The notes: generated from the letters alone by a model not told the origin. A stretch of DNA of 64,000 bases from Candidatus Obscuribacterales bacterium (GCA_019750335.1 JAIEOQ010000004.1:310001-374000); one strand, 5' to 3'; shown: positions 20,150-59,600, numbered from the stretch's first letter. Numbers and translations are program-made.

Positions 20150-21688
20150 GTGAGGTTTAATCTAATGGGCAATTGCTTCAAGAAGATGCTAGTTGCGCTG
20201 TCCGGTTTATGGATTGGTGCATCGGCATCTTTTCCGCCGGCTATGGCTGCTGACAGCGATCTTACTGGTGTTCGCGGTTCTTTCTTCGACTTTGTCGATG
20301 ATCCATGGAAACATGTCGGGCATGAAGAAGAATCTGCACGCTTCTATCCAGATGGACTGCTTGTAATGGACAAGGGGATCATCAAAGCTTTCGGACCTTA
20401 TTCCGAAGTGGCGGCTAAATATCCCGGTCTTAAAGTTACCAACATTCCAGATCGGATCATTGTTCCGGGCTTTATCGATGGACATGTGCACTTTCCGCAA
20501 ACCCGTGTGCTTGGTGCTTACGGACTACAACTTCTTCCTTGGCTCCAAGAATGGATCTTCCCGGAAGAAGCAAAATATCGCGATGATAATTATGCCCGTG
20601 ATGGCGTAAAACGTTATTTCGATAACATGCTTGCTGCCGGCACAACTACCGTGCAAGATTTTGGCACCTCATACAAAAGCGCGGTGGATATATTCTTTCA
20701 AGAAGCAAGCAAGCGCAACATGCGCGTTATTTGCGGAATCGGTGGTATCGATCGTAACGCCCCCGATTATTTCGTGACACCGCCGGCGCAGTTCTATGCC
20801 GACAGCAAAGAGCTTATCCAAAAGTATCATGGTAAAGGTCGTAACTTGTATGCCATTACGCCTCGTTTTGCTTACGGTGATTCATCCGAACTGTTGACTA
20901 AGTGTTCGCAGTTGCATAAAGAGTTTCCGGATTGCTGGGTGAACACTCACGTTTCGGAAAACCCGACTGAAACAAGAAATGCTCCGCTTGAACATAATGT
21001 TAGCGACTATCTTGGCTGTTATGAAAAATTCGGCTTGGTTGGACCTAAGTTCACAGCCGGACATGGCGTATGGCTTTCTGATAGTGAATTGTCTCGTTTG
21101 AATAAAGCCGGAGCTTCAATCTCTTTCTGCCCGAATTCAAATACTTTTTTGGGTAGCGGTCTTTTCCGCCTAGGAGCAGTTACGGATCCGGCACGTCGTG
21201 TACGTTTGACTTTCGGTACTGATATGGGCGGCGGCAACAATTTCTGCATGCTCAACGTGCTCGATCAAGCTTATAAAATCGGCATGTGCAACAACACCAT
21301 GCTCGACGGCAGCATCGACCCGCGGTGGCACGACAACGCCGAGTCCGAGCGCAATAAGCTTAACGCTTATCGTGCTTTCTATTCGGTAACTCTCGGTGGA
21401 GCGCAAGGGCTTTATCTGGATGACAAAATCGGTAATTTCAATCCTGGCAAAGAAGCTGACTTCGTTGCCCTTGATTGGAACGGTGGCCCGCCGGCAACTG
21501 CTTGGCACCAATCGCTTATTTGTGATAAGCCAAAAACAATGAAAGATGCCTCACAGCTTCTTTTTGGCATCATGGCTGTTGGTGACGACCGCGCAGTTGA
21601 TGAAACCTGGGTCATGGGCAAACGCTTGTACAAAAAACCACAAGCGGTCGTTGTAAAAAGCAACGAACAGACAGCAGGCGATAACTAA
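20150..21688 (+). CDS. Exported amidohydrolase, guanine deaminase-like
   Basis: N-terminal hydrophobic signal (LVALSGLWIGASASFPPAMAADS); GFIDGHVHFPQTRVLGAYGLQLLPWLQEWIFPEEAKY; FGTDMGGGNNFCML; GNFNPGKEADFVALDW. Confidence 0.88.
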   Translation: MRFNLMGNCFKKMLVALSGLWIGASASFPPAMAADSDLTGVRGSFFDFVDDPWKHVGHEEESARFYPDGLLVMDKGIIKAFGPYSEVAAKYPGLKVTNIPDRIIVPGFIDGHVHFPQTRVLGAYGLQLLPWLQEWIFPEEAKYRDDNYARDGVKRYFDNMLAAGTTTVQDFGTSYKSAVDIFFQEASKRNMRVICGIGGIDRNAPDYFVTPPAQFYADSKELIQKYHGKGRNLYAITPRFAYGDSSELLTKCSQLHKEFPDCWVNTHVSENPTETRNAPLEHNVSDYLGCYEKFGLVGPKFTAGHGVWLSDSELSRLNKAGASISFCPNSNTFLGSGLFRLGAVTDPARRVRLTFGTDMGGGNNFCMLNVLDQAYKIGMCNNTMLDGSIDPRWHDNAESERNKLNAYRAFYSVTLGGAQGLYLDDKIGNFNPGKEADFVALDWNGGPPATAWHQSLICDKPKTMKDASQLLFGIMAVGDDRAVDETWVMGKRLYKKPQAVVVKSNEQTAGDN

Positions 21689-21722
21689 GCAGTAACCGGA
21701 AACAGCGGCGGAGGATTTATTT

Positions 21723-23258
21723 ATGGAACCTAAATCAGATTCAAATTCAAATGGATTCTCTCGCCGCCGTTTTCTGGCAAAAACAATTGCCGTTTCCGGT
21801 TCATTCCTTGCCTCGGGCGCTTATGCTAAGCAGCTCTTGGCTCAATCGCCAAATAATGCTTCGGTTGATCTAACTGTTTTGCAAAAAAGTATTCAAGGTA
21901 AAGTTGTACAAAAAGGTGATCCGGAGTTTGACACTTTTGTTTATGGCGAACTTTGGAACAAGCTTGTGCCCAAGCGTGCACCGCAAGTGGTTGTGCGTGT
22001 CAACAATGAACAAGATGTAGTTGAAGCTGTCAGATTTGCTAAAGCAAACAAATTGAAAGTTGTGGTGCGTGGTGGCGGGCATAATTGGTGCTCACCTTCT
22101 TTGCGCAACGGCGGCATGATGATTGATCTGACTAACTTGAACAAGGTTATTTCAATCGATCCGCTAGCACGAAAAGCAGTAGTACAGCCGATTATCAGTA
22201 ATCGCGAAATACAAGCTCATTTGAATGCTCATGGTATGTCTTATCCCAGTGGGCATTGCCCACCGGTAAAACTAAGCGGTTATTTACTCGGCGGCGGTAT
22301 GGCTTGGAACCAAGGCGTTTGGGGAACCGGTACTGAAAGTGTTGAAGCTGTCGAGCTGGTCACTCCGGATGGCGAGCTTATTACAGCAAGCGCCGAACAA
22401 AATAACGATTATTATTGGGCTGCTCGCGGAGCCGGTTGTGGGCTCTTTGCTGTGGCTGTCCGTTATCATTTGAAACTTTATCCTTTGCCTAAATATATAA
22501 CGGCAAATTCTTATTCTTATCCGCTAGATCAAGCAGTGCCAATTGCTGATTGGTTAGGACAAATTTCCCATCGATTACCGAACAATGTTGAACTTAGTTT
22601 ATTTATGTTGAAAGCGCCGCCGGAACTTGCAGCAAAAACAAAAACCAGTGCCGGAAAGATTTGTATGGTTACGGCAACTGTTTTTGCTGATTCGGAGGAA
22701 GAAGCGCGCTCGGCGGTCAAGCTTTTAGACGAATGCCCGTCGATGAGCAAATGTATGGCAAAAGTCACCAACGAGCATGTGAATTTCGAAAAACTGTTTG
22801 ATATGTCTGGTTCTTTATGGCAAGCTGATCGCCGTAATCATGTTGAGGCGATGTTCTCTAACTCTAATGCCGGAAAGCTGTTCGCAGCGGTGAAAGATCA
22901 TTTCCTGAAAGTACCATCGCCTGAAAGCATAATTATGTTCGCCTTCTTTACCGGACCGAGCGTACCGGCACCGTTACCTGATGCTGCTTTCTCCATGAGC
23001 GCTCGTCTTTATGGCGGTCCTTGGACGATGTGGACTGAAGCCAAAGATGATGAAGCAAACAGCAAATGGCATAAAAAGTGTATTGAGCTTTTAAAGCCGT
23101 TTGTTCATGGTCACTATATCGGTGAAAGCGATACGATTACTTATCCGGCTCATATTAAAGGCGCTTTCTTGCCGCGCAATTATGAACGCCTGCAAAAACT
23201 GCGTCAAAAACATGATCCGGACGGTGTTTTCTTTTCCTTTGCCGAAGGTCTGAACTAA
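21723..23258 (+). CDS. Tat-exported FAD-binding oxidoreductase with BBE C-terminus
   Basis: Twin-arginine SRRRFLAKT; FAD_binding_4 VVRVNNEQDVVEAVRFAKANKLKVVVRGGGHNWCSPS; C-terminal NYERLQKLRQKHDPDGVF. Confidence 0.9.
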   Translation: MEPKSDSNSNGFSRRRFLAKTIAVSGSFLASGAYAKQLLAQSPNNASVDLTVLQKSIQGKVVQKGDPEFDTFVYGELWNKLVPKRAPQVVVRVNNEQDVVEAVRFAKANKLKVVVRGGGHNWCSPSLRNGGMMIDLTNLNKVISIDPLARKAVVQPIISNREIQAHLNAHGMSYPSGHCPPVKLSGYLLGGGMAWNQGVWGTGTESVEAVELVTPDGELITASAEQNNDYYWAARGAGCGLFAVAVRYHLKLYPLPKYITANSYSYPLDQAVPIADWLGQISHRLPNNVELSLFMLKAPPELAAKTKTSAGKICMVTATVFADSEEEARSAVKLLDECPSMSKCMAKVTNEHVNFEKLFDMSGSLWQADRRNHVEAMFSNSNAGKLFAAVKDHFLKVPSPESIIMFAFFTGPSVPAPLPDAAFSMSARLYGGPWTMWTEAKDDEANSKWHKKCIELLKPFVHGHYIGESDTITYPAHIKGAFLPRNYERLQKLRQKHDPDGVFFSFAEGLN

Positions 23259-23259
23259 G

Positions 23260-24192
23260 TTAGTTCAACTCGGTAATACGTAAAAGATCAAGCAAGCCGA
23301 TATCGAGCTGTTCGATTGTCCATTGTGTGTCATAAAGCATGCGGATACGATTGTCTAATAGCCTGATGTTTTCTTTCTCTTTGGCTGTTTTACCTTCGAT
23401 AGCGGCTAATTTTTCCAGCTGCTTTTCTTTGGTTGAACGTAAGTAGCGTCCTTTTTTCCAGCCATCAATCAAAACGTTTATCCGTGTGTGATTGTTGTTT
23501 GCATCGGGCGGTACAGAATTCAGATATTTAACTATAGTGTCGTAATTATGTTTTTGCGCAGGTTGACTCAAATGAAAAACATCGGCAAGTATGGTGGTGC
23601 CGCCGTCGATTTTTTTAGTACCGCTACGGCTGGCAGCAAGTGAAGCTGTGGATAAGAGTAAACCGATACTGCTGGCTAATAGCAAAAGCTCTGTGCCAAG
23701 GGCGTCTTTACCGTGCAAAAAGGCCGGACCGGATAAAACACCGAGTATGCCACCTTGCATAAAGTTGGCTGTGAACAAAGCGTTTAAGTTTCTTTGTCGT
23801 TTTGCTTGCAGCATGCTTTGCCCGTTCGATGACCAGGCAAGTTCGCGGTCTATGCGTCCGGATATCATTCGTATTTCAAGAGAGCAACCGAGCACTTTGT
23901 CAAAAACATCTATTTTGAGTGCCATCTCTTCATCGTTGTGCGGGTTGCCATCGCCGGCTTGTTTGATTTGAATCAAACGTTCGACTTGAGGCAAAATACC
24001 AAGTAAAGTGGCAGCTTCATAAGCTGCCGGAGATAATACTGCTTTTGTTTGCGATGCAGCGGCAATTTTAATTGGTGCTGCCGCTGTTTCTTCGATGGTC
24101 CCTTGTGCATGCATCGGCAACGAAAATGTTTGCGTAAGCACAAGGGCAATGCTCAAGAATATGCTTGTCGCTGTTCGTTGTCCGGCTTTCAA
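23260..24192 (-). CDS. Exported hypothetical protein, NF(M/L)xGG family member 1
   Basis: Signal peptide FLSIALVLTQTFSLPMHAQG; core GRIDREL...ANFMQGGILGVLSGPAFLHG; alignable with the 24205 and 55628 genes. Confidence 0.75.
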   Translation of the reverse strand: MKAGQRTATSIFLSIALVLTQTFSLPMHAQGTIEETAAAPIKIAAASQTKAVLSPAAYEAATLLGILPQVERLIQIKQAGDGNPHNDEEMALKIDVFDKVLGCSLEIRMISGRIDRELAWSSNGQSMLQAKRQRNLNALFTANFMQGGILGVLSGPAFLHGKDALGTELLLLASSIGLLLSTASLAASRSGTKKIDGGTTILADVFHLSQPAQKHNYDTIVKYLNSVPPDANNNHTRINVLIDGWKKGRYLRSTKEKQLEKLAAIEGKTAKEKENIRLLDNRIRMLYDTQWTIEQLDIGLLDLLRITELN

Positions 24193-24204: not shown

Positions 24205-25149
24205 TTAGTTAACTGCTATTGATTCGTGTAATTCATAAAGTGAAGCTTCGAACTCTTCCATATGGCACTTCAAATCTTCAAGCAGATCCATCCGTTGCGA
24301 GATAATACAAATATTTTCTTTCAGGCATTGCTCCGGGCTGAGCGGATGTGCCGCCAGTTGAGCGCAGTGCATGCGATTGTTTATATTTATTCCTTCGAAA
24401 TCTTGCCAGTGGCGGACCAATATTTCGCGACGTGTAAGTTTGCTTTCCGAGCCGGGAACCGGTGAATTCATGAACTTCCAAAGATAGCTGAGGCTGGCGT
24501 CTGCCGGTTTGAAATCTTGGTTGAAAATGTGACTGAGCATATTTGGTGCACAGTTGATTTTTCTTGACCAAAGAGACGGTACAAATAAGTTGCTTCCAGC
24601 AAGCAGAATCCCTGTGCCAAAAGTAGTAATGCCTACTTCTTGCGCCGGAATATGCAAACCATGCAAATTAAGCGATTGTTTGATTGTACCCATGACGCCG
24701 CCTTGCAAAAAGTTGGCATTGTTAATCATGTTGGCGGTCATGTTTTTTTTGTTGGTTAAAGAATCCAAGTTAACTCGTGTTGTGGAAAGATCGTAATTGA
24801 TCATTGCCACCACTTTGCGTACTTCTTGAGAAGCGATAAAAATCTTCCACAAGCAGAGCAAGCGCGCATGTTGCATCGCTTTTGGTAGTTGAGTTGTTTT
24901 TGCTTTGCCGGCTGCCTTGTATTGACGCAAGCTTTCAACATAAGGTTTTATTTTTAGTAGTTCGGCCAGTTCGTTGGCGTCAGCGCGCAACTGTCCTTGT
25001 GCCTCGGCTTCGAGATTACGGTCCGGAATTATTTTGATATCGCGAAATTCATGCTTGTCGGTGCTTGTAGCTGCCAAACAAAGCGGTGAACCAAATATGA
25101 TGGCAGGCAAGCTGCAGAACAAGGCTACACGTTGAATAATTGAATTCAT
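24205..25149 (-). CDS. Exported hypothetical protein, NF(M/L)xGG family member 2
   Basis: Signal peptide; core ANFLQGGVMGTIKQSLNLHG; starts 12 nt upstream of member 1. Confidence 0.75.
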   Translation of the reverse strand: MNSIIQRVALFCSLPAIIFGSPLCLAATSTDKHEFRDIKIIPDRNLEAEAQGQLRADANELAELLKIKPYVESLRQYKAAGKAKTTQLPKAMQHARLLCLWKIFIASQEVRKVVAMINYDLSTTRVNLDSLTNKKNMTANMINNANFLQGGVMGTIKQSLNLHGLHIPAQEVGITTFGTGILLAGSNLFVPSLWSRKINCAPNMLSHIFNQDFKPADASLSYLWKFMNSPVPGSESKLTRREILVRHWQDFEGININNRMHCAQLAAHPLSPEQCLKENICIISQRMDLLEDLKCHMEEFEASLYELHESIAVN

Positions 25150-25223: not shown

Positions 25224-26501
25224 TTAAGCGGGACTGCTAAGTGCGGGAAGCCATCGTTGCTCGTCTCGTGCTTTCTCGTCATCCGGCTTCTGGTTTAGAC
25301 GTTCCAGTTTGTCAAAATAACGACATTTTCCAAAGCTTTCAGTTCTTTCTGTTTGTAGGCTTTGCAAAGCATCCTCAATCAAGGCTTGTTCTTCCGGTAG
25401 CAATTCGCCGCCTCGGGCTCTGGCGTTGATCATAAATTCACGCATGGCGGACGATGTTTTATCGAGACCGGGAAAAGTTGCCCAAGCTTCCAGTTGGGTC
25501 ATTTTTTCAGAAGACAATTCTTTGCCTTGGTAGTTTGCCAGAATATACTCTTCGGCAAGTGCCCGCGCTTGATTTAAGCGAGAATCCGGGTTCGAAAAAT
25601 TTTTCCAAGCTTCAAGTTGTGCTATGTCAGCAGTTTTTAATGCTTTTTCCGGATCATCTCTATAAAGAAAGTCTTGTTGATAAAGCTTACGTAGATTATC
25701 GAATTTAGCTCCGGAATTTGGAATGTCGATCCAGCTTGCTAACTCTGCCTTTTCTTCCGGTGTTAATTTGCTTTCGTTCTCAGATTCAAGAAATTTCTTC
25801 TGAATCAGAGTGCGGGCACGATCAAATTCAGGATCTGGGTTGGAAAAACTTTCCCAACCTTTCAGTTCAGCTAAGCTGTTTATGTCCAAGCGAGGAGCAC
25901 CAGGAGCCGGCGGCTGTGCTAGCGGTATCAGCTGATCTAATTGATTCAAATAGCTAAGTTCACGAGCAAGATCCAGTCTTTTGTCCGGATTGGGAAAGGC
26001 TAGTCTGCTATTAAGAAGGGCGGTTTGTTCATGAGTCAAAGGAGTTTTCTCTGAAGCGGCCATCTCAGCATATAAAATGTTGCGAGCTCTGGTTGAACCA
26101 TCATCTAGTCCGGGGAGTGTTCGCCAAACCTCTAAATCGGTTGTTTCGCGTTCGTTCAATTCTTGCCCCATATTATCTCGCCTAGCCAATTCGCGCGGAT
26201 AAGCATGGGGATCTTCTTCGCCGTCTTTTTGCTCTGGGTTACCAGGAAATTCAAGCAAAGCGTTATTGTATGCTGTCGTATAAGAAGGTTTTGCTGATTT
26301 ATTTTTTTCTCCTAATAAGCCGGAGAATTCTATGCCGCTACCGGCAGCAGCCAAATCAACATTTTCTGCGGGAGATTTTGTCGCGTCGTCTTTTATCAGT
26401 GAGACTAAATCAAAACCGTCCGGCTTAGAATTTGTATCGTCTTTCGAGTTATCGTTTTCGGATAGTTTCGTTTGATTCTCTGAATCTCTGGCAAGCGACA
26501 T
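25224..26501 (-). CDS. WxxF-NPD repeat protein, paralog 1
   Basis: Tandem units e.g. ELKGWESFSNPDPEFDRARTLIQKKFLESENESKLTPEEKA; no signal peptide. Confidence 0.8.
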   Translation of the reverse strand: MSLARDSENQTKLSENDNSKDDTNSKPDGFDLVSLIKDDATKSPAENVDLAAAGSGIEFSGLLGEKNKSAKPSYTTAYNNALLEFPGNPEQKDGEEDPHAYPRELARRDNMGQELNERETTDLEVWRTLPGLDDGSTRARNILYAEMAASEKTPLTHEQTALLNSRLAFPNPDKRLDLARELSYLNQLDQLIPLAQPPAPGAPRLDINSLAELKGWESFSNPDPEFDRARTLIQKKFLESENESKLTPEEKAELASWIDIPNSGAKFDNLRKLYQQDFLYRDDPEKALKTADIAQLEAWKNFSNPDSRLNQARALAEEYILANYQGKELSSEKMTQLEAWATFPGLDKTSSAMREFMINARARGGELLPEEQALIEDALQSLQTERTESFGKCRYFDKLERLNQKPDDEKARDEQRWLPALSSPA

Positions 26502-26518
26502 ACTTATTCTCCGTAAAT

Positions 26519-27703
26519 TTAGACGGCAAGTGTATACCTTGGTAGCTTTCGGCGCGGTTCATGTTCAGGTCGTTCCCCGCGTTCTGGGGCATGTGTGTAG
26601 CGATAATAAGCTCTAAGCGAACCGTGAGGTTCGGCCTTAAAAGTATTGTTGGCTTCATGGGCTTGACTGAGCTTCTTATCTTCGACTTTAGAAAGAGTAG
26701 ATAGTTCGGCTTTGGCAGCAAGTTCGCGAGCCTCATTGAATTTTTGGTCAGGATTTGAAAAAGATTGCCAGGCTGTTAATTCAGCTTTGGCTGTCTCTGA
26801 AAGTTCCGGTCCTTCACCATAGTTGGCTAAGATATGAATTTGAGCTAGCTGACGTGCATGATTAAGACTTGAGTCCGGATTGTCAAAAGCTCTCCAAGCT
26901 TCTAGTTTAGCTACTTGGCTGGGGTTTAATCCTCCTTCCTTTTCGCCGTGAAGATATTCTTTTTCAACTAGTTTGCGCAAAGATGCCGAATTTTGATCCA
27001 GTCCGGGGAATTCCATCCAGCCAGATAATTCAGCTGATTCTTCTTTGGTCAGAAGGTCTTTTCGAGCGCTTTTGGCAGTTAATTCACGTGGACGATCATA
27101 TTGCGGATCCGGATTACTGAAACTCCGCCACGCTTCAAGCTCGTTTTTTTCTTGAGCGGTCAATTCTTCTTCTTCGCGACCTTGCTTTGCTCTCAGAGTA
27201 CGAGCATTATCCAAGCGGGGGTCAGGATTAGGAAACTCTTCCCAGCTTCGGAGAAAGGCAGCTTCAGGCAAGGTAAGGTTGCCTGTCTGATCAAATAGCT
27301 CTTTGAATCTCAGGTTGCGCGCTGTATCCGAGCCATCATCTAATCCGGGAAATTGTCGCCATGTTTCGAGTTCATTTCGTTCCTGATTCGATAAAGGCTG
27401 GGTGCCAAGCGTTTCACGTTGAGCTAGCTCTCGAGGATAAGCGTGAGGGTCTTGATCGTCGTTTACTCCGGCTTGACCAGGAAACTCTTTCAATGCTTTT
27501 TGCCAAGCGCTCTCTTGAGCTTCATTCGCTGAAATTAAATCAAGCACCGGCGCGTCAACGGCAGCAACTTGTAGTGGCCCTCGTTCGCTTTTTTGTTTAT
27601 CGCTGCTAAGCAAGTTGATAAAGTCAAAATCAGCATCGGAGCCGCTTTTTGGATCAAAATCTATTACAAGATCTTTCTTACTCTCAGTTTTATCTGTGCT
27701 CAT
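26519..27703 (-). CDS. WxxF-NPD repeat protein, paralog 2
   Basis: Units e.g. ELEAWRSFSNPDPQYDRPRELTAKSARKDLLTKEESA; same architecture as neighbours. Confidence 0.8.
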   Translation of the reverse strand: MSTDKTESKKDLVIDFDPKSGSDADFDFINLLSSDKQKSERGPLQVAAVDAPVLDLISANEAQESAWQKALKEFPGQAGVNDDQDPHAYPRELAQRETLGTQPLSNQERNELETWRQFPGLDDGSDTARNLRFKELFDQTGNLTLPEAAFLRSWEEFPNPDPRLDNARTLRAKQGREEEELTAQEKNELEAWRSFSNPDPQYDRPRELTAKSARKDLLTKEESAELSGWMEFPGLDQNSASLRKLVEKEYLHGEKEGGLNPSQVAKLEAWRAFDNPDSSLNHARQLAQIHILANYGEGPELSETAKAELTAWQSFSNPDQKFNEARELAAKAELSTLSKVEDKKLSQAHEANNTFKAEPHGSLRAYYRYTHAPERGERPEHEPRRKLPRYTLAV

Positions 27704-27773
27704 AAGATTTACCGGTAGCCATATCTCTATTTCCTACCCGGCTCCGGGATAATCTTAAACCGCTTGAGATTAA

Positions 27774-29024
27774 CTAGTCTGCTGATGCTCCGTAATGTCT
27801 TCCTGGCATCATTCGGCGTAAATCTACATCGATGGTTTTGTTCAAGCTGTATTGTTTGCGATGCTCTTCATCGGCAAATAACGGGTCGATAACTTTTCGT
27901 CCGGTAAGCTCACCGTAAGCATCGCTTAGTGTCACTTTTTCCATGTGGCTAAGCGGAGTAGTTGGATCCAGCTCTCCTCTTATGTAAATTTCACGTGCTT
28001 GGTCAAAACGTTTGTCCAGGTCCGGAAAATTAGCCCAGGCTCCTAACTCGGCGGCTTGTTCTTTAGTTAGAGCAGGACCTTTGTCATATTGATTGAGCAC
28101 AGAAGCCTGAGCCAATTCTCTTGCCTGATTAAAGCGGCGATCCGGATTCTCGAAAGTCGTCCAAGCTTCTAATTTAGCTATTTCAGCTGGCTGTAAACCT
28201 TTAATCGGATCATCGCCATAAAGCAGATCTCTCTGAGCTAATTTACGCAGTTCGCTTGATCTGTAATCAGGCTCCGGAAATTGAACCCAGGAGCCTAGCT
28301 CAGCTTTCTCTTGTGGGCTTAAAGAGTCTGCATACCCCTCCTGTCTATTTCCTGGCTGAAAATAGGCTTGCAAGGCTTTGTGCATCAATTCACGCGGGCG
28401 GTCAAGCTTCTCTGCCGAATTTGGAAAACTGCGCCAACTCTCTAGCTCTGCGCGTTCTTTTGCGGTCAGGCTGCTCTCATTTAAATATTGCTTTTGACTT
28501 AAATCGCGTAAGTGTGCCATTTGTTTTCCCGAACCAGGAAACTCGTCCACGCTGCGAATAAAAGCCTTTTCTTCGTTTGTAGTTTCTTCACCCAAGAGAT
28601 ATTTATGGGTTAATTCTCGTGCTTTATTTTGGTTCTCGTCCAAGCCAGGAAATTTACGCCAAGCTTTAAGCTCCAGAGTCTCTTCGTCAGAGAGAGCCGG
28701 ATTCTCTAAAATTTCACGACGCACAAGTTGTCTTGGCTGAGCGTGAGGATCTTCGCCTTTGTGATCCAAAGGCGGACCGGGAAACTCAAATAATGCTTTA
28801 GCGTCGGCTTCGCGATAGCGATTATTGTCTGTTTTTATTTGACTAAATTCGCGTGACAGATCAAAGCCTGAGCTGGCGGCTATTTCAATTTGACCAGGTT
28901 GTTCTTTCGATGCATCCGGTTTAGCTAAAAAGACTAAATTTAAGCTGTCTGTTTTGCTCTCTTCATTTGATTCAGCGCGAACGGCATTGTCCGGCTGATT
29001 AATTTGCCTGTCTTCTAAAGTCAT
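27774..29024 (-). CDS. WxxF-NPD repeat protein, paralog 3
   Basis: Units e.g. KLEAWTTFENPDRRFNQARELAQASVLNQYDKGPALTKEQAA. Confidence 0.8.
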   Translation of the reverse strand: MTLEDRQINQPDNAVRAESNEESKTDSLNLVFLAKPDASKEQPGQIEIAASSGFDLSREFSQIKTDNNRYREADAKALFEFPGPPLDHKGEDPHAQPRQLVRREILENPALSDEETLELKAWRKFPGLDENQNKARELTHKYLLGEETTNEEKAFIRSVDEFPGSGKQMAHLRDLSQKQYLNESSLTAKERAELESWRSFPNSAEKLDRPRELMHKALQAYFQPGNRQEGYADSLSPQEKAELGSWVQFPEPDYRSSELRKLAQRDLLYGDDPIKGLQPAEIAKLEAWTTFENPDRRFNQARELAQASVLNQYDKGPALTKEQAAELGAWANFPDLDKRFDQAREIYIRGELDPTTPLSHMEKVTLSDAYGELTGRKVIDPLFADEEHRKQYSLNKTIDVDLRRMMPGRHYGASAD

Positions 29025-29158
29025 TTAGTAAATTCTCGCGGTTAGAACTGTTGCGGTAGTGACAGCTTTAATAAACCCGAGTAATGCGTGATTTCCGTAT
29101 TGCTGAAGCAGAAGGATTCATATAAAATCCATCCAGATTCAGGAGTACGTTTCGGCCC

Positions 29159-30955
29159 ATGAGTGAGCGCGAATCCGAGTTGACTTACACGCGATGTGAT
29201 GAGGATAACTCATTTAATTCATTGAGGCAAGAAGCAGTTGCAGACTGCTTTGGAAATACGCAGAATCGTGTAAAAGAAAATGCGGATACTTACTGTAATC
29301 CGATGAATCTTGATTATGCTTTTGTTCCGAAAAAAGATTATTCGCTAAACAATGCTCATCGCTCTTCAGCTGATCCTTCCTGCCAACTTTTGGACGGCAA
29401 ACTCTATCTTTTCAGCACCAATCAAGAAGGCTATTGGGTCTCGGAAAATATGGGCAAATGGGATTTCATTCCGCATTTGTTCAAATCTAATTTTAACGAG
29501 GATCAAGTATGCGCTCCTGGCGCTTGGGCTGGTAAAAATGGCATGTTTCTACTGCCGAGTTTTACAGATCAAGTCTCAATGCCCCTTTATCAAAGCAAAG
29601 ACCCAAGTACCGGTGTGTGGACTGAAGCTGCTAAAGCTTTTCCTTTGCCGGTGTGGGATCCGTCCCTGTTTGAGGATGAAGACGGTAAAACTTATGTTTA
29701 TTGGGGGTCGAGCAATCTTTATCCGCTTAAAGGGGTAGAGCTTGATCCAGCAAATCAGTTTGCCATTAAAGGACAAATTCAGGAGCTGTTGCGTTTGCAT
29801 ACGCAGATACATGGCTGGGAACGTTTTGGTGACGACAACCAAAACGGCAAGCTTGATCCTTTCATTGAAGGTCCTTGGATGAGTAAATTCAAGGGCAGAT
29901 ATTATTTACAGTATGCTGCCCCCGGTACTGAGTTAAATGTTTACGGTGATGGTGTTTATACAGCGGACAGCCCGCTTGGCCCATTCAAATATCAAGCCCA
30001 TAATCCTTTTTCTTGGAAGCCGACTGGCTTTATTACCGGTGCCGGACATGGCAGTACCTTTGCCGACAAGCATGGCAATCTATGGCATGTGGGTTCTTCG
30101 GTAATCAGTCAAAAAAACACATTTGAACGACGGTTGAGCATGTTTCCGACCTATGTAGATGGTGAAGGCGTGTTGCATACCGACACATCTTTTGGTGATT
30201 ATCCGCATAAACTTGCCGTTGAAAAACGAGAAGAAGATTCAGGCTATACCGGTTGGACTTTGCTTTCTTATAATAAAAAAGCTTGGGCTTCCGAATCCAA
30301 AGAAAACAAAGATACGGCGCATGCTTTTGACGAAAATATCAAAACTTACTGGAGCGCTCCGAACAACAAAGAAGGACAGTTCTTAGCTGTTGATTTAGGC
30401 AAAGATTGTGATGTCCGCGCCATTCAAGTCAATTATGCCGACGACGAAGCCAGGCTTTTCGGTAAACAGCACGGGCTGAGTCATCGCTATCAAATACTGG
30501 AGTCGAAGGACAAAAGTGTTTGGAATCTACTTGTTGATAAAAGCAAGAACGATAAAGAAGTTCCTCACGATTATATTGAGCTTGTCGAGCCTGTTTCTAC
30601 CCGTTATCTTAAACTTGTCAATTTGGAGATGCCGACGGGCAATTTTGCCATCGGTGATTTGCGCGTTTTCGGACAAGCACCAGGACCAGTGCCTGAGGCT
30701 GTTTCTGATTTTAAGGTGGAGCGTAATGCGGCTGATCGTCGAGATGCTGTCCTTAATTGGCAGGCTGTAGATGGTGCCTATGCCTATGAAATTGCTTTTG
30801 GTGTTGAGCCGGAAAAGTTATACAGTTCGCTTTTGGTTCATGACACTAAATATAATCTGCATTCTTTGAATGTTGATTCGTCATATTATTTCCGGATAAA
30901 AGCTGTCAGCGAAACAGGCATTTCAAAGCCAAGTACTGTCATTTCTATCCGTTAA
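29159..30955 (+). CDS. GH43-like beta-propeller + F5/8 type C (discoidin) + fibronectin III domain protein
   Basis: GH43-like YCNPMNLDY...DPSCQLLDGKLYLFST...VWDPSLFEDEDGKTYVYWGS...IEGPWMSKFKGRYYLQYAAPGTE; discoidin KENKDTAHAFDENIKTYWSAPNNKEGQFLAVDLGKDCDVRAIQV; FN3 PGPVPEAVSDFKVERNAADRRDAVLNWQAVDGAYAYEI. Confidence 0.85.
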   Translation: MSERESELTYTRCDEDNSFNSLRQEAVADCFGNTQNRVKENADTYCNPMNLDYAFVPKKDYSLNNAHRSSADPSCQLLDGKLYLFSTNQEGYWVSENMGKWDFIPHLFKSNFNEDQVCAPGAWAGKNGMFLLPSFTDQVSMPLYQSKDPSTGVWTEAAKAFPLPVWDPSLFEDEDGKTYVYWGSSNLYPLKGVELDPANQFAIKGQIQELLRLHTQIHGWERFGDDNQNGKLDPFIEGPWMSKFKGRYYLQYAAPGTELNVYGDGVYTADSPLGPFKYQAHNPFSWKPTGFITGAGHGSTFADKHGNLWHVGSSVISQKNTFERRLSMFPTYVDGEGVLHTDTSFGDYPHKLAVEKREEDSGYTGWTLLSYNKKAWASESKENKDTAHAFDENIKTYWSAPNNKEGQFLAVDLGKDCDVRAIQVNYADDEARLFGKQHGLSHRYQILESKDKSVWNLLVDKSKNDKEVPHDYIELVEPVSTRYLKLVNLEMPTGNFAIGDLRVFGQAPGPVPEAVSDFKVERNAADRRDAVLNWQAVDGAYAYEIAFGVEPEKLYSSLLVHDTKYNLHSLNVDSSYYFRIKAVSETGISKPSTVISIR

Positions 30956-32187
30956 GACGGTGACCTTCCGGGGAGCAGTTTACGCTCGTCGAAGTGCTTA
31001 TCTGGGCTAGCGGGAGAATGGTAGGAGCGGGCGTAGTTTTTATTCGGCTCGTCGGTATCCGGTGTTGTCGCTTCAGCATAAGCTTGATCCAGCATTTCTT
31101 CTTCCGCAATAGTCAAAGATTGCATTCCTTCAAGCTCGCTTTTAGCATAAAGTTTTCGTGCTTGGTCGAACTTGCTGTCCGGATCGCTGAATTTCATCCA
31201 AGCGGTTAGCTCGGCTAATTCAGCCTGAGACAGGGGCGGACCGTCTTTATAGTTCGCTCTTATGTGAGCTTCAGCTAAAATACGCGCCGGTTCTTGTTTT
31301 GCCCCGGAAACATTGAAAATGCGTTGCGCTTCAAGCTTAGCGATATCAGCTGGTGTCAATCCGGCTTTTGCATCGCTTTCGTTTAAAAACTCCTTTTGCG
31401 CGAGAATGCGTAATTCTGCCGAATGTTTATTTAAGCCGGGGAAATCAATCCAGCTAGCCAGCTCCGCTTTCTCTAATTCTGTCAATGAAGATTCATTTTC
31501 AATAAGCTGGCGAGGACGATCGTATCTGGAATCAGGATTATTGAAACTGCGCCAAGCTTCAAGTTTAGCTTGTTCTTCCGGGTTTAATTGCCGACCGTTT
31601 TCACCATTGTCCGGTGATTGGGCAAGCCAGCGGTCCATATAAGCTAAATTGCGGGCCTCACTTAAACGTTTATCCGGATTGGGAAATTCTTGCCAACTTG
31701 AAAGAAAAGCTGTGTCTTCACGTGTCATAGAGTCCCGAGCAATCAGATTCTTAAACATCAAGTTACGAGCGGCGGTGCTGTCGTCATCCAATCCGGGAAA
31801 ACGTTTCCACGCTCTCAGTTTGTCATACTCCTCTTCGGATAAAGTGCCTAAAATGTCGCGACGAGCTAAATCGCGGGGCTCGTAAAGCGGATCTTCTTTC
31901 CCTGGCTCAATTTTATCTTTTGGAAAAAGGGTTTTTGCTTTTCGATCGGCGCTTTGTTCAGCGGTTTCTTTTGTTTCATGTTCACCGGACTCTGTTGAAA
32001 TCAACTCTCCGGCAAAAGCTAACTGCTGCGGTTCGGATTGAGAAGTACTTTTAGTATCTGCTGAAACCTTCTTGTCTTGAAAATATAGCGAAACTAAATT
32101 TAGTTCTGAAGATTGAGATTGGCTATTTTGCGTTTGTGCCAAATCAAGAATATCTGGGTGGCTTTTGCCCCCATTGCTAAGTGTCAT
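30952..32187 (-). CDS. WxxF-NPD repeat protein, paralog 4
   Basis: Units e.g. KLEAWRSFNNPDSRYDRPRQLIENESSLTELEKA; overlaps the 3' end of the GH43-like gene by 4 nt. Confidence 0.8.
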   Translation of the reverse strand: MTLSNGGKSHPDILDLAQTQNSQSQSSELNLVSLYFQDKKVSADTKSTSQSEPQQLAFAGELISTESGEHETKETAEQSADRKAKTLFPKDKIEPGKEDPLYEPRDLARRDILGTLSEEEYDKLRAWKRFPGLDDDSTAARNLMFKNLIARDSMTREDTAFLSSWQEFPNPDKRLSEARNLAYMDRWLAQSPDNGENGRQLNPEEQAKLEAWRSFNNPDSRYDRPRQLIENESSLTELEKAELASWIDFPGLNKHSAELRILAQKEFLNESDAKAGLTPADIAKLEAQRIFNVSGAKQEPARILAEAHIRANYKDGPPLSQAELAELTAWMKFSDPDSKFDQARKLYAKSELEGMQSLTIAEEEMLDQAYAEATTPDTDEPNKNYARSYHSPASPDKHFDERKLLPGRSPS

Positions 32188-55627: not shown

Positions 55628-56590
55628 TTAAGCTAAGCTACGCTTGCCATTCAGGACTTCGATTAATTCGAGTAAAAGATCGTCCATACCTAAGACTAAA
55701 ACACGCAGTTCGGTAAGCATGGCGACACGATCCTGCAAAACGGCAATATTTACTTCTTGAACTTTATAAGTGCCAGCGATGCGAGCAGCGGTTACTTTAG
55801 GTGATTCACGATGACCGCCGTGCATCAAGCACATGTTTAGTTTGCTCCAGCGATCAAGCAAGCTCATGCGTCTTGTAATTTTGCCTTTAGCTGGCACAGT
55901 ATTTAAATAAGTCCAGACTGATTCAGCTATTTCAGGCGGATGATCGCCGCCGGCAACGATTATTTTGGCTAAAGTATTTGGCAGATGTCTTTCTAGGTTG
56001 CGGTCGCCTTGTTGTTGGCGTAAAGCCCAGGTGGCAAGACTAGTTTGAATTGTGCCTTCTGTTGTTTCGATAATCTCCGGTGTAATATCCGGGATGTTGC
56101 CAAGTTTAAGGCTGCCGCGCACAATACCGCTAACGCCGCCAGAAAGAAAGTTGGCATAAGTGTTTAAGCGTACAGCTCGATCTCGACGCTCGGCTTGATA
56201 AGCTAAAACTTGGTTAGTATCGGCCAGCTCACGATCGATACGATTGCAGGTGCTGCGTACGGTCAAAGAGATTGTCAATATCTCTTCAAGCAAAGTCTGG
56301 CGTAGATTCAAAAGGTTGAGTTGATTTTGTACTGCTAAATTCTTGTTCTCGCCGCGCAGACGAACATATTCTTCAAGACTAGAAAGGATGCCCATTTGTG
56401 AGGCTAAAGTGCGAGCGTCAGGCGAAAGCGTTTTTGTTATATGCAGCTGGCTTTCGTGGGCTGTAAGCGGATGGGTCGGTAAACCTGCCAGCTTAAGCTT
56501 CTCTTGTTCAAGCTCAAGGGGCGTAGCAACTGCGCTTCTTGAAGAGAAGACCAGGGCGGCAATAAAAATGATGTATTTTGTTGACTTCAC
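55628..56590 (-). CDS. Exported hypothetical protein, NF(M/L)xGG family member 3
   Basis: GTG start at 56590 gives signal VKSTKYIIFIAALVFSSRSAVA; core NRIDREL...ANFLSGGVSGIVRGSLKLG. ORF track extends to 56734. Confidence 0.7.
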   Translation of the reverse strand: MKSTKYIIFIAALVFSSRSAVATPLELEQEKLKLAGLPTHPLTAHESQLHITKTLSPDARTLASQMGILSSLEEYVRLRGENKNLAVQNQLNLLNLRQTLLEEILTISLTVRSTCNRIDRELADTNQVLAYQAERRDRAVRLNTYANFLSGGVSGIVRGSLKLGNIPDITPEIIETTEGTIQTSLATWALRQQQGDRNLERHLPNTLAKIIVAGGDHPPEIAESVWTYLNTVPAKGKITRRMSLLDRWSKLNMCLMHGGHRESPKVTAARIAGTYKVQEVNIAVLQDRVAMLTELRVLVLGMDDLLLELIEVLNGKRSLA

Positions 56591-56671
56591 AAGCCGGCTC
56601 GCAAACCTCCTGATGTTAGGACCTTGGCGGCACTGTGTCAAATTCGGCCGGTTAGCGATTAGAATTAGGTT

Positions 56672-59600
56672 ATGTCTAAATCCGCCTCGGCAAAAATGCT
56701 CTCCTTGGACTGGGCGCACCCCCTTGTGCGTCAATGGTTTTTAGCGCGTTTTGGCAGTCCGACCGAACCCCAGCTTGCCGGTTGGCCCCATATACTTGCC
56801 GGACAAACGACACTTATTTCAGCGCCTACCGGTTCGGGTAAAACTCTGACTGCTTTTCTTGCTTGTATCGATAAGCTTGTACGCAAGGCTGTCGCCGGTA
56901 AGCTTGAGGATAAAACAGAAGTTGTTTATGTTTCACCGCTCAAAGCTTTAAGCAACGATATTCAAATCAATCTGGATGACCCGCTTTCCGAAATTTTAGC
57001 TCTGGCTGAAAGTCAGGGTATAACTATGCAACGCATTCGTACTGCAGTGCGCACAGGCGACACTCTTGCTTCAGAACGCCAGGCGATGCTCAAGCGTCCG
57101 CCGCATATTTTAGTGACTACACCTGAATCCTTATATATATTATTGACGGCTGAAAAAAGTCGGGCAAACTTAAGCTCAACTCAAACAATCATTGTTGATG
57201 AAATTCATGCTGTTGCTGATGATAAACGGGGCGCTCATTTAAGTTTATCCCTTGAGCGACTGGAGCATCTGTGTAAAAAAACGCCAGTGCGAATCGGTCT
57301 TTCGGCAACGCAAAAACCAATTGAGCTTATTGCTCGATTCCTGGCGGGCAGTCGCCGCCCGCAGCCGGTGATTGTCGATGTCGGACATAAACGTCAGCTT
57401 GACGTTGCTATTGCCGTGCCGGGCATGCCACTAGGAGCAGTGGCATCCAACGAACAGTGGGGCGAAACTTACGATCGTTTGGCGGAGCTTATCCAAAGCC
57501 ATAAATCGACCCTTATTTTTGTCAATACACGCAAACTTGCCGAACGAGTAACCATGAACCTGGCTGAACGTTTAGGCGAAGAAGCGGTAGCTGCGCATCA
57601 TGGCAGTTTGTCGCGCAAGCTGCGTTTGAGTGCGGAGCGAAGATTGAAAAGCGGGCAGTTGAAGGCCCTTGTGGCTACGGCGTCTCTTGAGCTTGGGATT
57701 GATATCGGTGCTATCGATCTTGTTTGCCAACTAGGCTCACCGCGTTCGATTGCTGTTGCTTTGCAGCGTATCGGTCGAGCTGGTCACTGGCGCGGTGCTG
57801 TACCTAAAGGGCGAATCTTTCCGACAACACGTGACGAGCTTATGGAATGTGCTGCTTTAGTTAAAGCAATCGAGACACGTGAGCTAGACAAAATCATTAT
57901 TCCTGAATGTTCTTTGGATATTCTTGCCCAACAGATAACTGCCATGTGCAGCTCTACTGATTGGAGCGAAGATGATTTGTATGAAGCTGTAACTGCTGCT
58001 TCGCCTTATGCTAACTTGGACAAAAAGACTTTTTATGAAGTCTTAGAGATGCTTGCCGAAGGTATATCAGCTCGTCGTGGTCGTTACGGAGCTTATCTCT
58101 TATGGGACCGTGTGAATAAGGTTCTTAAAGGTAGGCGCGGTGCTCGTTTGGCAGCAATAACCAGCGGTGGTGCCATCCCTGAAACCGGGTTATATACAGT
58201 AGTTGCTGAACCGGACGGTTTGACTGTCGGCACTCTTGACGAAGATTTTGCCATTGAAAGTAACGGTGGCGACATTATTTTATTAGGCAATGCCTCCTGG
58301 CGAATTCGTCGAGTGGAATCGGCTGCCGGGCGTGTAATTGTTGAAGATGCTCATGGTGCACCGCCGACAGTGCCATTCTGGTTAGGGGAAGGTCCGTCGC
58401 GCACGCCTGAGCTTTCGCTTCAAGTAGCTAAATTGCGTCTTTTAATCAGTGAAGCAAAAGATCCGGACGCACTTATGCGGATTTTGCAAACTGAATACGG
58501 TCTTGATCAATCCGGTGCTGAACAAGCGATTGAATATATCCTTGAAGGAAAACGAGTACTTGGTGCCGTCCCGCAGCAGGATCTAATTATCGCCGAGCGC
58601 TTTTTTGATGAAGGCGGCGGTATGCAGCTTGTCATTCATTCGCCTTTCGGCGGACGGATAAATAAAGCTTGGGGATTAGCTTTGCGCAAATGTTTTTGCC
58701 GTTCTTTCAATTTTGAGTTGCAAGCTGCAGCTACCGATGATGGTTTGAATATTTCGCTTGCCGAACAACACAGCTTCCCTTTAAGCGACGTGTTTACTTT
58801 TCTCAGTCCGGAATCGCTTAAGCACATACTTGAACAGGCAGTTCTAGCCTCGCCGATTTTTACCAGTCGCTTTCGCTGGGATGCAACACGTGCTCTTGCC
58901 TTATTGCGTTTTCAAGGCGGCAAAAAGGTACCGCCTTATCTGCAACGCTTGAAAGCAGACGATCTTTTAGCGGCTGTTTTTCCTGATGCTGCAGCTTGTC
59001 AGGATAATTTGCCTGGTGATATCGAGCTGCCTAATCATCCGCTTATTAATGAAGTGATGAAAGACGTACTGACAGAAGCGCTTGATCTTGAAGGTCTGAG
59101 CGATGTGATTGCCGGTTTGCGTGATGGGCGAATCAAGACGCTTTCGGTTGATACACCGGTGCCTTCGGTTTTCTCTCACGAAATACTTAACGCTAATCCA
59201 TATGCTTATCTTGATGATGCGCCACTTGAAGAACGTCGTGCTCGAGCAGTTGAAATGCGGCGAGTCTTGCCTGATTCAATGAAAGAGGTTGGGCAGTTGG
59301 ATCCGGCGGCAGTCAAACAAGTGCAGGATGAAGCTTGGCCTGATGTGCGCGATCATGATGAACTGCATGACTTGTTGCAAACTTTAATTGTTTTGCCTGA
59401 GTCGGCTGTGGTTAAAAATGAATGGGTGAAATATTTCGATCAACTCAAAGCTGAGCGACGGGCGGCAAAAGTAATTGCTAATGACAAAATATTTTTTGTT
59501 GCTGCCGAAAAGAAAAAAGTTTTTGCTGCTATTTATCCTCAAGCGCAATATTTAAATGAATTGCCCGATTTGGATCTGCCTGAAAAAGACGATCCAGCTG

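Follow-up and report, generated by a model that had tools for sequence, protein, structure and literature searches.

The four proteins W1 to W4 encoded in the 64,000-nucleotide stretch of DNA analyzed here (the window), together with a fifth full-length paralog on another contig, consist of seven two-helix units of about 40 residues followed by a closing half-unit of one helix. Their placement in the alpha-solenoid structural class, as tandem antiparallel two-helix units, is well supported by the predicted models. We favor, with moderate confidence, the reading that they represent a lineage-specific family of cytoplasmic alpha-solenoids acting as protein-binding scaffolds. The window belongs to a 4.2-Mb genome of Candidatus Obscuribacterales (G000; 14 contigs, 92% complete), a group of uncultured, non-photosynthetic relatives of cyanobacteria.

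Architecture and predicted fold of the repeat proteins

The four minus-strand ORFs of 394 to 425 aa claimed in the initial annotation were recovered with exact coordinates and with lengths of 425, 394, 416, and 411 aa (Table 1). Its description of a cluster of four paralogs stood insofar as the four ORFs are real, but the run is interrupted by an unrelated GH43/F5-8C/Fn3 gene, and the fifth copy lies elsewhere. Pairwise identity among W1 to W4 was 35 to 42%. Divergence is greatest at third codon positions, dN is 0.6 to 0.75, and dS has reached saturation, which argues that the paralogs are real, old coding genes under purifying constraint. Upstream of W4, we noted a sigma-70-like sequence (TTTACA-17-TATACT, 32243 to 32215) and a ribosome-binding site (GAGGAAG), both from a motif scan running near the chance rate. 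A HigB/HigA-like toxin-antitoxin pair, recognized by eye, lies directly upstream of the fifth paralog (L005:263-1015, contig C12).

Table 1. Repeat genes and their neighbors (window coordinates unless a locus is given)
Feature	Length (aa)	Position	Strand	Remarks
Repeat protein W1	425	25224..26501	(-)	Units 1-7 = aa 71-366 (window 25404-26291)
Repeat protein W2	394	26519..27703	(-)	Units 1-7 = aa 60-338 (window 26690-27526); modelled as alpha-solenoid
Repeat protein W3	416	27774..29024	(-)	Units 1-7 = aa 67-356 (window 27957-28826)
Repeat protein W4	411	30952..32187	(-)	Units 1-7 = aa 80-356 (window 31120-31950)
Fifth full-length paralog	420	L005:1204-2466		Contig C12 (same genome, other contig)
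mem1, exported/membrane protein	314	24205..25149	(-)	74 bp downstream of W1; not repeat family
mem2, mem1 paralog	310	23260..24192	(-)	mem1/mem2 pair conserved in Obscuribacterales; not repeat family
GH43 + F5/8-type C + Fn3 protein	598	29159..30955	(+)	Between W4 and W3; not repeat family
Amidohydrolase + FAD-oxidoreductase genes		20150-23258		Adjoin mem pair; named by eye from sequence, without family search

The units were delimited with an HMM seeded with ten hand-picked units and then iterated, and the earlier count of "about eight" tandem units proved roughly right, the eighth being the half-unit. Disordered N- and C-terminal tails flank the array in W1 to W4; in W4, the former covers residues 1 to 79, and the latter carries DERKLLPGRSPS. 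Units 2 to 7 are typical; unit 1 diverges from them and forms an N-terminal cap (EDPHAxPRELxxRE). In the unit consensus, L-[ST]-x-E-E-x-A-x-L-x-[AS]-W-x-x-F-[PS]-[NG]-[PL]-D-x-x-x-[DN]-x-[AP]-R-x-L-x-x-K-x-x-L, helix A (LTxEExAxLxAWxxF) is joined to helix B (xxxRxLxxKxxL) by a Pro/Gly-Asp turn, PNPD or PGLD; a loop of variable length follows helix B, so that the period ranges from 34 to 50 aa. The PGLD turn is found mostly in units 2 and 5, and the NPD turn mostly in units 3, 4, and 6.

When each protein was scored with an HMM made from the other four, almost all units reached 13 to 45 bits, the two weakest, both of W4, scoring 4.4 and 2.1; the top scores among 1,000 shuffled proteins were 5.8 to 7.7 bits, with an overall maximum of 7.7. 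Column counts covered 35 units of the window genome (own units) and 20 units or part-units of other genomes (foreign units). The Arg of helix B was found in 35/35 own units and in 17/18 foreign ones, and L9 (29/30 and 17/18), F15 (31/34 and 16/17), and L35 (32/34 and 17/18) were similarly kept. W12, found in 27/32 own units, was not retained in the foreign ones.

The array is acidic in all five paralogs (core pI of about 4.7 to 5.2, net charge of -10 to -17). None has a hydrophobic segment (maximum KD19 below 1), so that, judged from hydropathy, the repeat proteins have neither a signal peptide nor a transmembrane segment; nor was any catalytic signature found in them. Two short tail motifs, LNLVSL...LAAAG at the N end and [DE]xRRxLP at the C end, are common to the five paralogs. 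Within the genome, the N-terminal motif is confined to these five proteins, which ruled it out as a genome-wide export tag.

The AlphaFold2 model of W2, computed from a shallow alignment of 4 sequences (W2 and its three window paralogs), contains 16 helices in regular A/B alternation, with a mean pLDDT of about 90 across the array, about 280 residues at a pLDDT of at least 70, and disordered tails at residues 1 to 52 and 358 to 394. For the distant 245-aa homologue L094, aligned with its L095 orthologue only (2 sequences), the same A/B pairs were predicted with a pLDDT of 92 to 97 over the array. The initial annotation had guessed at a scaffold of the alpha-solenoid type, and the regular, high-confidence two-helix solenoid predicted for both proteins agrees with it. 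The curvature and handedness of the array and the burial of the invariant Arg can only be inferred.

Distribution, duplication, and genomic neighborhood

Among 53 genomes of the order, the full-length form was found in the window genome only. Shorter proteins with the same unit are scattered within the Obscuribacterales family of the window genome, in about ten genomes (G001, G003, G006, G009, G014, G017, G021, G035, G063, and the window genome itself), and none were detected in most genomes of that family. We defined the repeat family by at least two tandem units in which L9, F15, R, and L35 occupy the unit positions. Such units are present in all five proteins of the window genome, in L006/L108, L094, L095, L106, and L109, and more weakly in L102, L103, L104, and L105; L107 has one unit. 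Unlike the acidic own paralogs, L094 and L095, which are distant homologues, have a basic pI of about 9, so electrostatics are not common to the whole family. Synteny among the repeat homologues did not extend beyond close orthologues. In G021, the genes of a 374-aa repeat-family protein and of a protein with two LysM domains lie tail to tail (L102:8188-9312 and L032:15-1388), the LysM protein likewise having no evident signal peptide.

In 386 genomes sampled evenly across the phylum, a single weak match was found outside the window genome, a lone stretch resembling a unit, LSDEEKAELAGLKEFPNN, that belongs to a membrane protein from another family of the same class (L110:7603-9201); it may be due to chance or may hint that the unit arose earlier. 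No homologues of the repeat proteins were found in phage, plasmid, and IMG/VR viral-contig searches. A genome-contig scan with the window family gave no confirmed match, and one with the distant homologues returned two Obscuribacterales MAGs (JAIEQI010000024 and JAKFVQ010000027), relatives at the level of genus or family; other phyla were covered by such pattern-based scans alone, which reach close relatives. Within the genomes searched, the expected restriction to related genomes was upheld, and the repeat family is likely confined to the order.

Units of the same rank in different paralogs were on average 49% identical, compared with 35% for units of different rank between paralogs and 34% for units within one protein, and in 95 of 140 tests the best-matching unit had the same rank. 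This conservation of rank indicates that the seven-unit array predates the gene duplications. The local expansion by duplication proposed earlier thus holds for the four window genes, as a duplication of whole genes after the array had reached seven units and not as a recent amplification of units.

W3, W2, W1, mem1, and mem2 share one orientation, are separated by 70, 17, 74, and 12 bp, and may form one transcript. The exported-protein family of mem1 and mem2, which has no Pfam match, occurred in 33/33 sampled genomes of the order (2 to 16 matches each) and in 0/17 other genomes of the class. Many of its members lie in ORFs of 820 to 890 aa holding at least two tandem copies, and further sites of the family lie at 55628 to 56734 of the window and at loci L074 to L093. 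In relatives, the mem pair often adjoins an amidohydrolase and/or an FAD oxidoreductase gene (L112, L116, L117, L118, and others), with varying gene order and strand. The role of mem1/mem2 as partners of the repeat proteins was tested in eight relatives and rejected: in the eight neighborhoods examined, no unit match, and thus no repeat gene, was found near the mem pair. Since the conserved block occurs there without repeat genes, the repeat cluster is an addition beside it, and guilt by association is accordingly weak. GH43-type enzymes are usually exported; the GH43/F5-8C/Fn3 protein of the window starts without an obvious signal peptide.

Known repeat families and alternative readings

By sequence HMMs or Foldseek, the repeat proteins are not members of any catalogued repeat family. 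No credible match to them was found in Pfam, NCBIfam, PHROGs, PADLOC, or PDB sequences, which bears out, as regards Pfam and NCBIfam, the initial statement that the unit fitted no repeat family known to its author. No TPR, HAT, Sel1, PPR, or HEAT model of Pfam or NCBIfam was listed for the window or related proteins at E values up to 1, and the PADLOC anti-phage defense models matched with 0 families. Foldseek searches of the W2 and L094 models against the PDB gave best E values of 0.96 and 0.25, with a TM of at most about 0.3, and no match to the PDB and viral models had an E value below 0.1. Short, sub-threshold, or clearly irrelevant matches (phrog_3792, DUF4880, MoCo_extend_TAT, and AcrE1) fell on repeated helix motifs and were dismissed as compositional or convergent, as was DUF2617 in one distant homologue (22.4 bits against a cut-off of 22.3, with no single stretch passing alone). 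With the phage tail-fibre assembly chaperone (phrog_3792, Caudo_TAP, PDB 5yvq; E of 5.9e-5 to 0.07), the proteins share one short helix motif of the EExAxLxxW type, repeated in the query, but the matches span only 14 to 25 residues, without flanking homology to the Obscuribacterales proteins and without a phage or viral homologue. We rejected this candidate and took the likeness as convergent.

One lead is the likeness to HAT (W-x-x-F...AR-x-L): both have a two-helix unit, W/F at a fixed spacing in helix A, and (A)R-x-L in helix B. The Obscuribacterales unit differs in having no Pfam HAT/Suf match, an extra FPNPD/PGLD turn and LTxEE cap, a longer and variable period, and a bacterial, lineage-specific distribution. 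With TPR it shares the helix-turn-helix alpha-solenoid and a probable scaffold role, but the TPR period is 34 against 34 to 50 here, the TPR signature is missing, and the A-B turn (FPNPD) is longer than that of TPR; neither the invariant Arg nor the NPD/PGLD turn is known as a TPR feature. Sel1-like repeats (SLR), which in bacteria are two-helix units of variable length (36 to 44 aa), are likewise paralog-rich, whereas the unit described here has neither their Gly/Ala-rich consensus nor a Sel1 model match. Instead of being an independent repeat, the unit could belong to the TPR/HAT/PPR/OPR two-helix superfamily as a highly diverged member, though we doubt it. The helix-turn-helix form, the length of 34 to 50 aa, and the fixed spacing of conserved aromatics would fit; conserved Tyr/Trp residues characterize HAT motifs (PMC8635915); and the weak Foldseek listings include PPR (PRORP1/2, 4ozs) and TPR (Fis1) entries, but these all had E values above 2 and a TM of at most 0.32, and the family models found nothing.

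Tandem arrays of two-helix units of 35 to 40 aa are also typical of OPR and PPR proteins, and the OPR units, of 38 to 40 aa, are similar in length to ours (PMC8635915). The regularity of the array, the cyanobacterial lineage, and the basic charge of two distant homologues would likewise suit gene-expression regulators that bind nucleic acid with one unit per base or short stretch. A PPR-, OPR-, or TALE-like mode of reading RNA or DNA is nevertheless disfavored, and we consider it highly improbable, given the acidic surface of the five own paralogs, a 34- to 50-aa period made irregular by loop lengths, unlike that of code-reading arrays, and the lack of any RAP, PPR, or TALE match. The PPPEW (or LWALAR) consensus described for OPR units (PMC8635915) was absent from the unit alignment and column counts. 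Quite unlikely, too, is an exported or surface location of the repeat proteins in one polysaccharide or envelope system with mem1/mem2 and the GH43 gene. The co-directional genes with their short gaps and the position of the GH43 gene among the repeat genes point that way; the repeat proteins, however, have no signal peptide, the mem pair in the relatives stands apart from any unit match, and at other loci the repeat homologues have no mem genes nearby.

Proposed role of the repeat family

Under the favored reading of cytoplasmic protein-binding scaffolds, L9, W12, F15, and L35 would form, with the invariant Arg, an intra- and inter-unit core, and LTxEE and NPD would act as helix N-caps, so that the units stack into one elongated scaffold. 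Since they have no signal peptide or transmembrane segment, the proteins would be cytoplasmic, and the acidic core of all five paralogs favors protein partners over nucleic acid. As in TPR and Sel1 scaffolds, each paralog might bind different protein partners through its disordered tails, its loops, and the variable faces of its helices, and the two tail motifs common to the five could serve as docking peptides. That these proteins make up a separate repeat family born within Obscuribacterales, with an invariant-Arg ladder and five modular binders that have different partners and common docking tails, strikes us as an unlikely extension of this reading.

TPR dominates bacterial alpha-solenoids (PMC11514114). 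A family with its own consensus, a fixed unit order, and paralog expansion would, if it is indeed a separate repeat, widen the range of natural scaffold families and provide a template for design, and it offers a first handle on the many uncharacterized multi-copy proteins of the uncultured Obscuribacterales.
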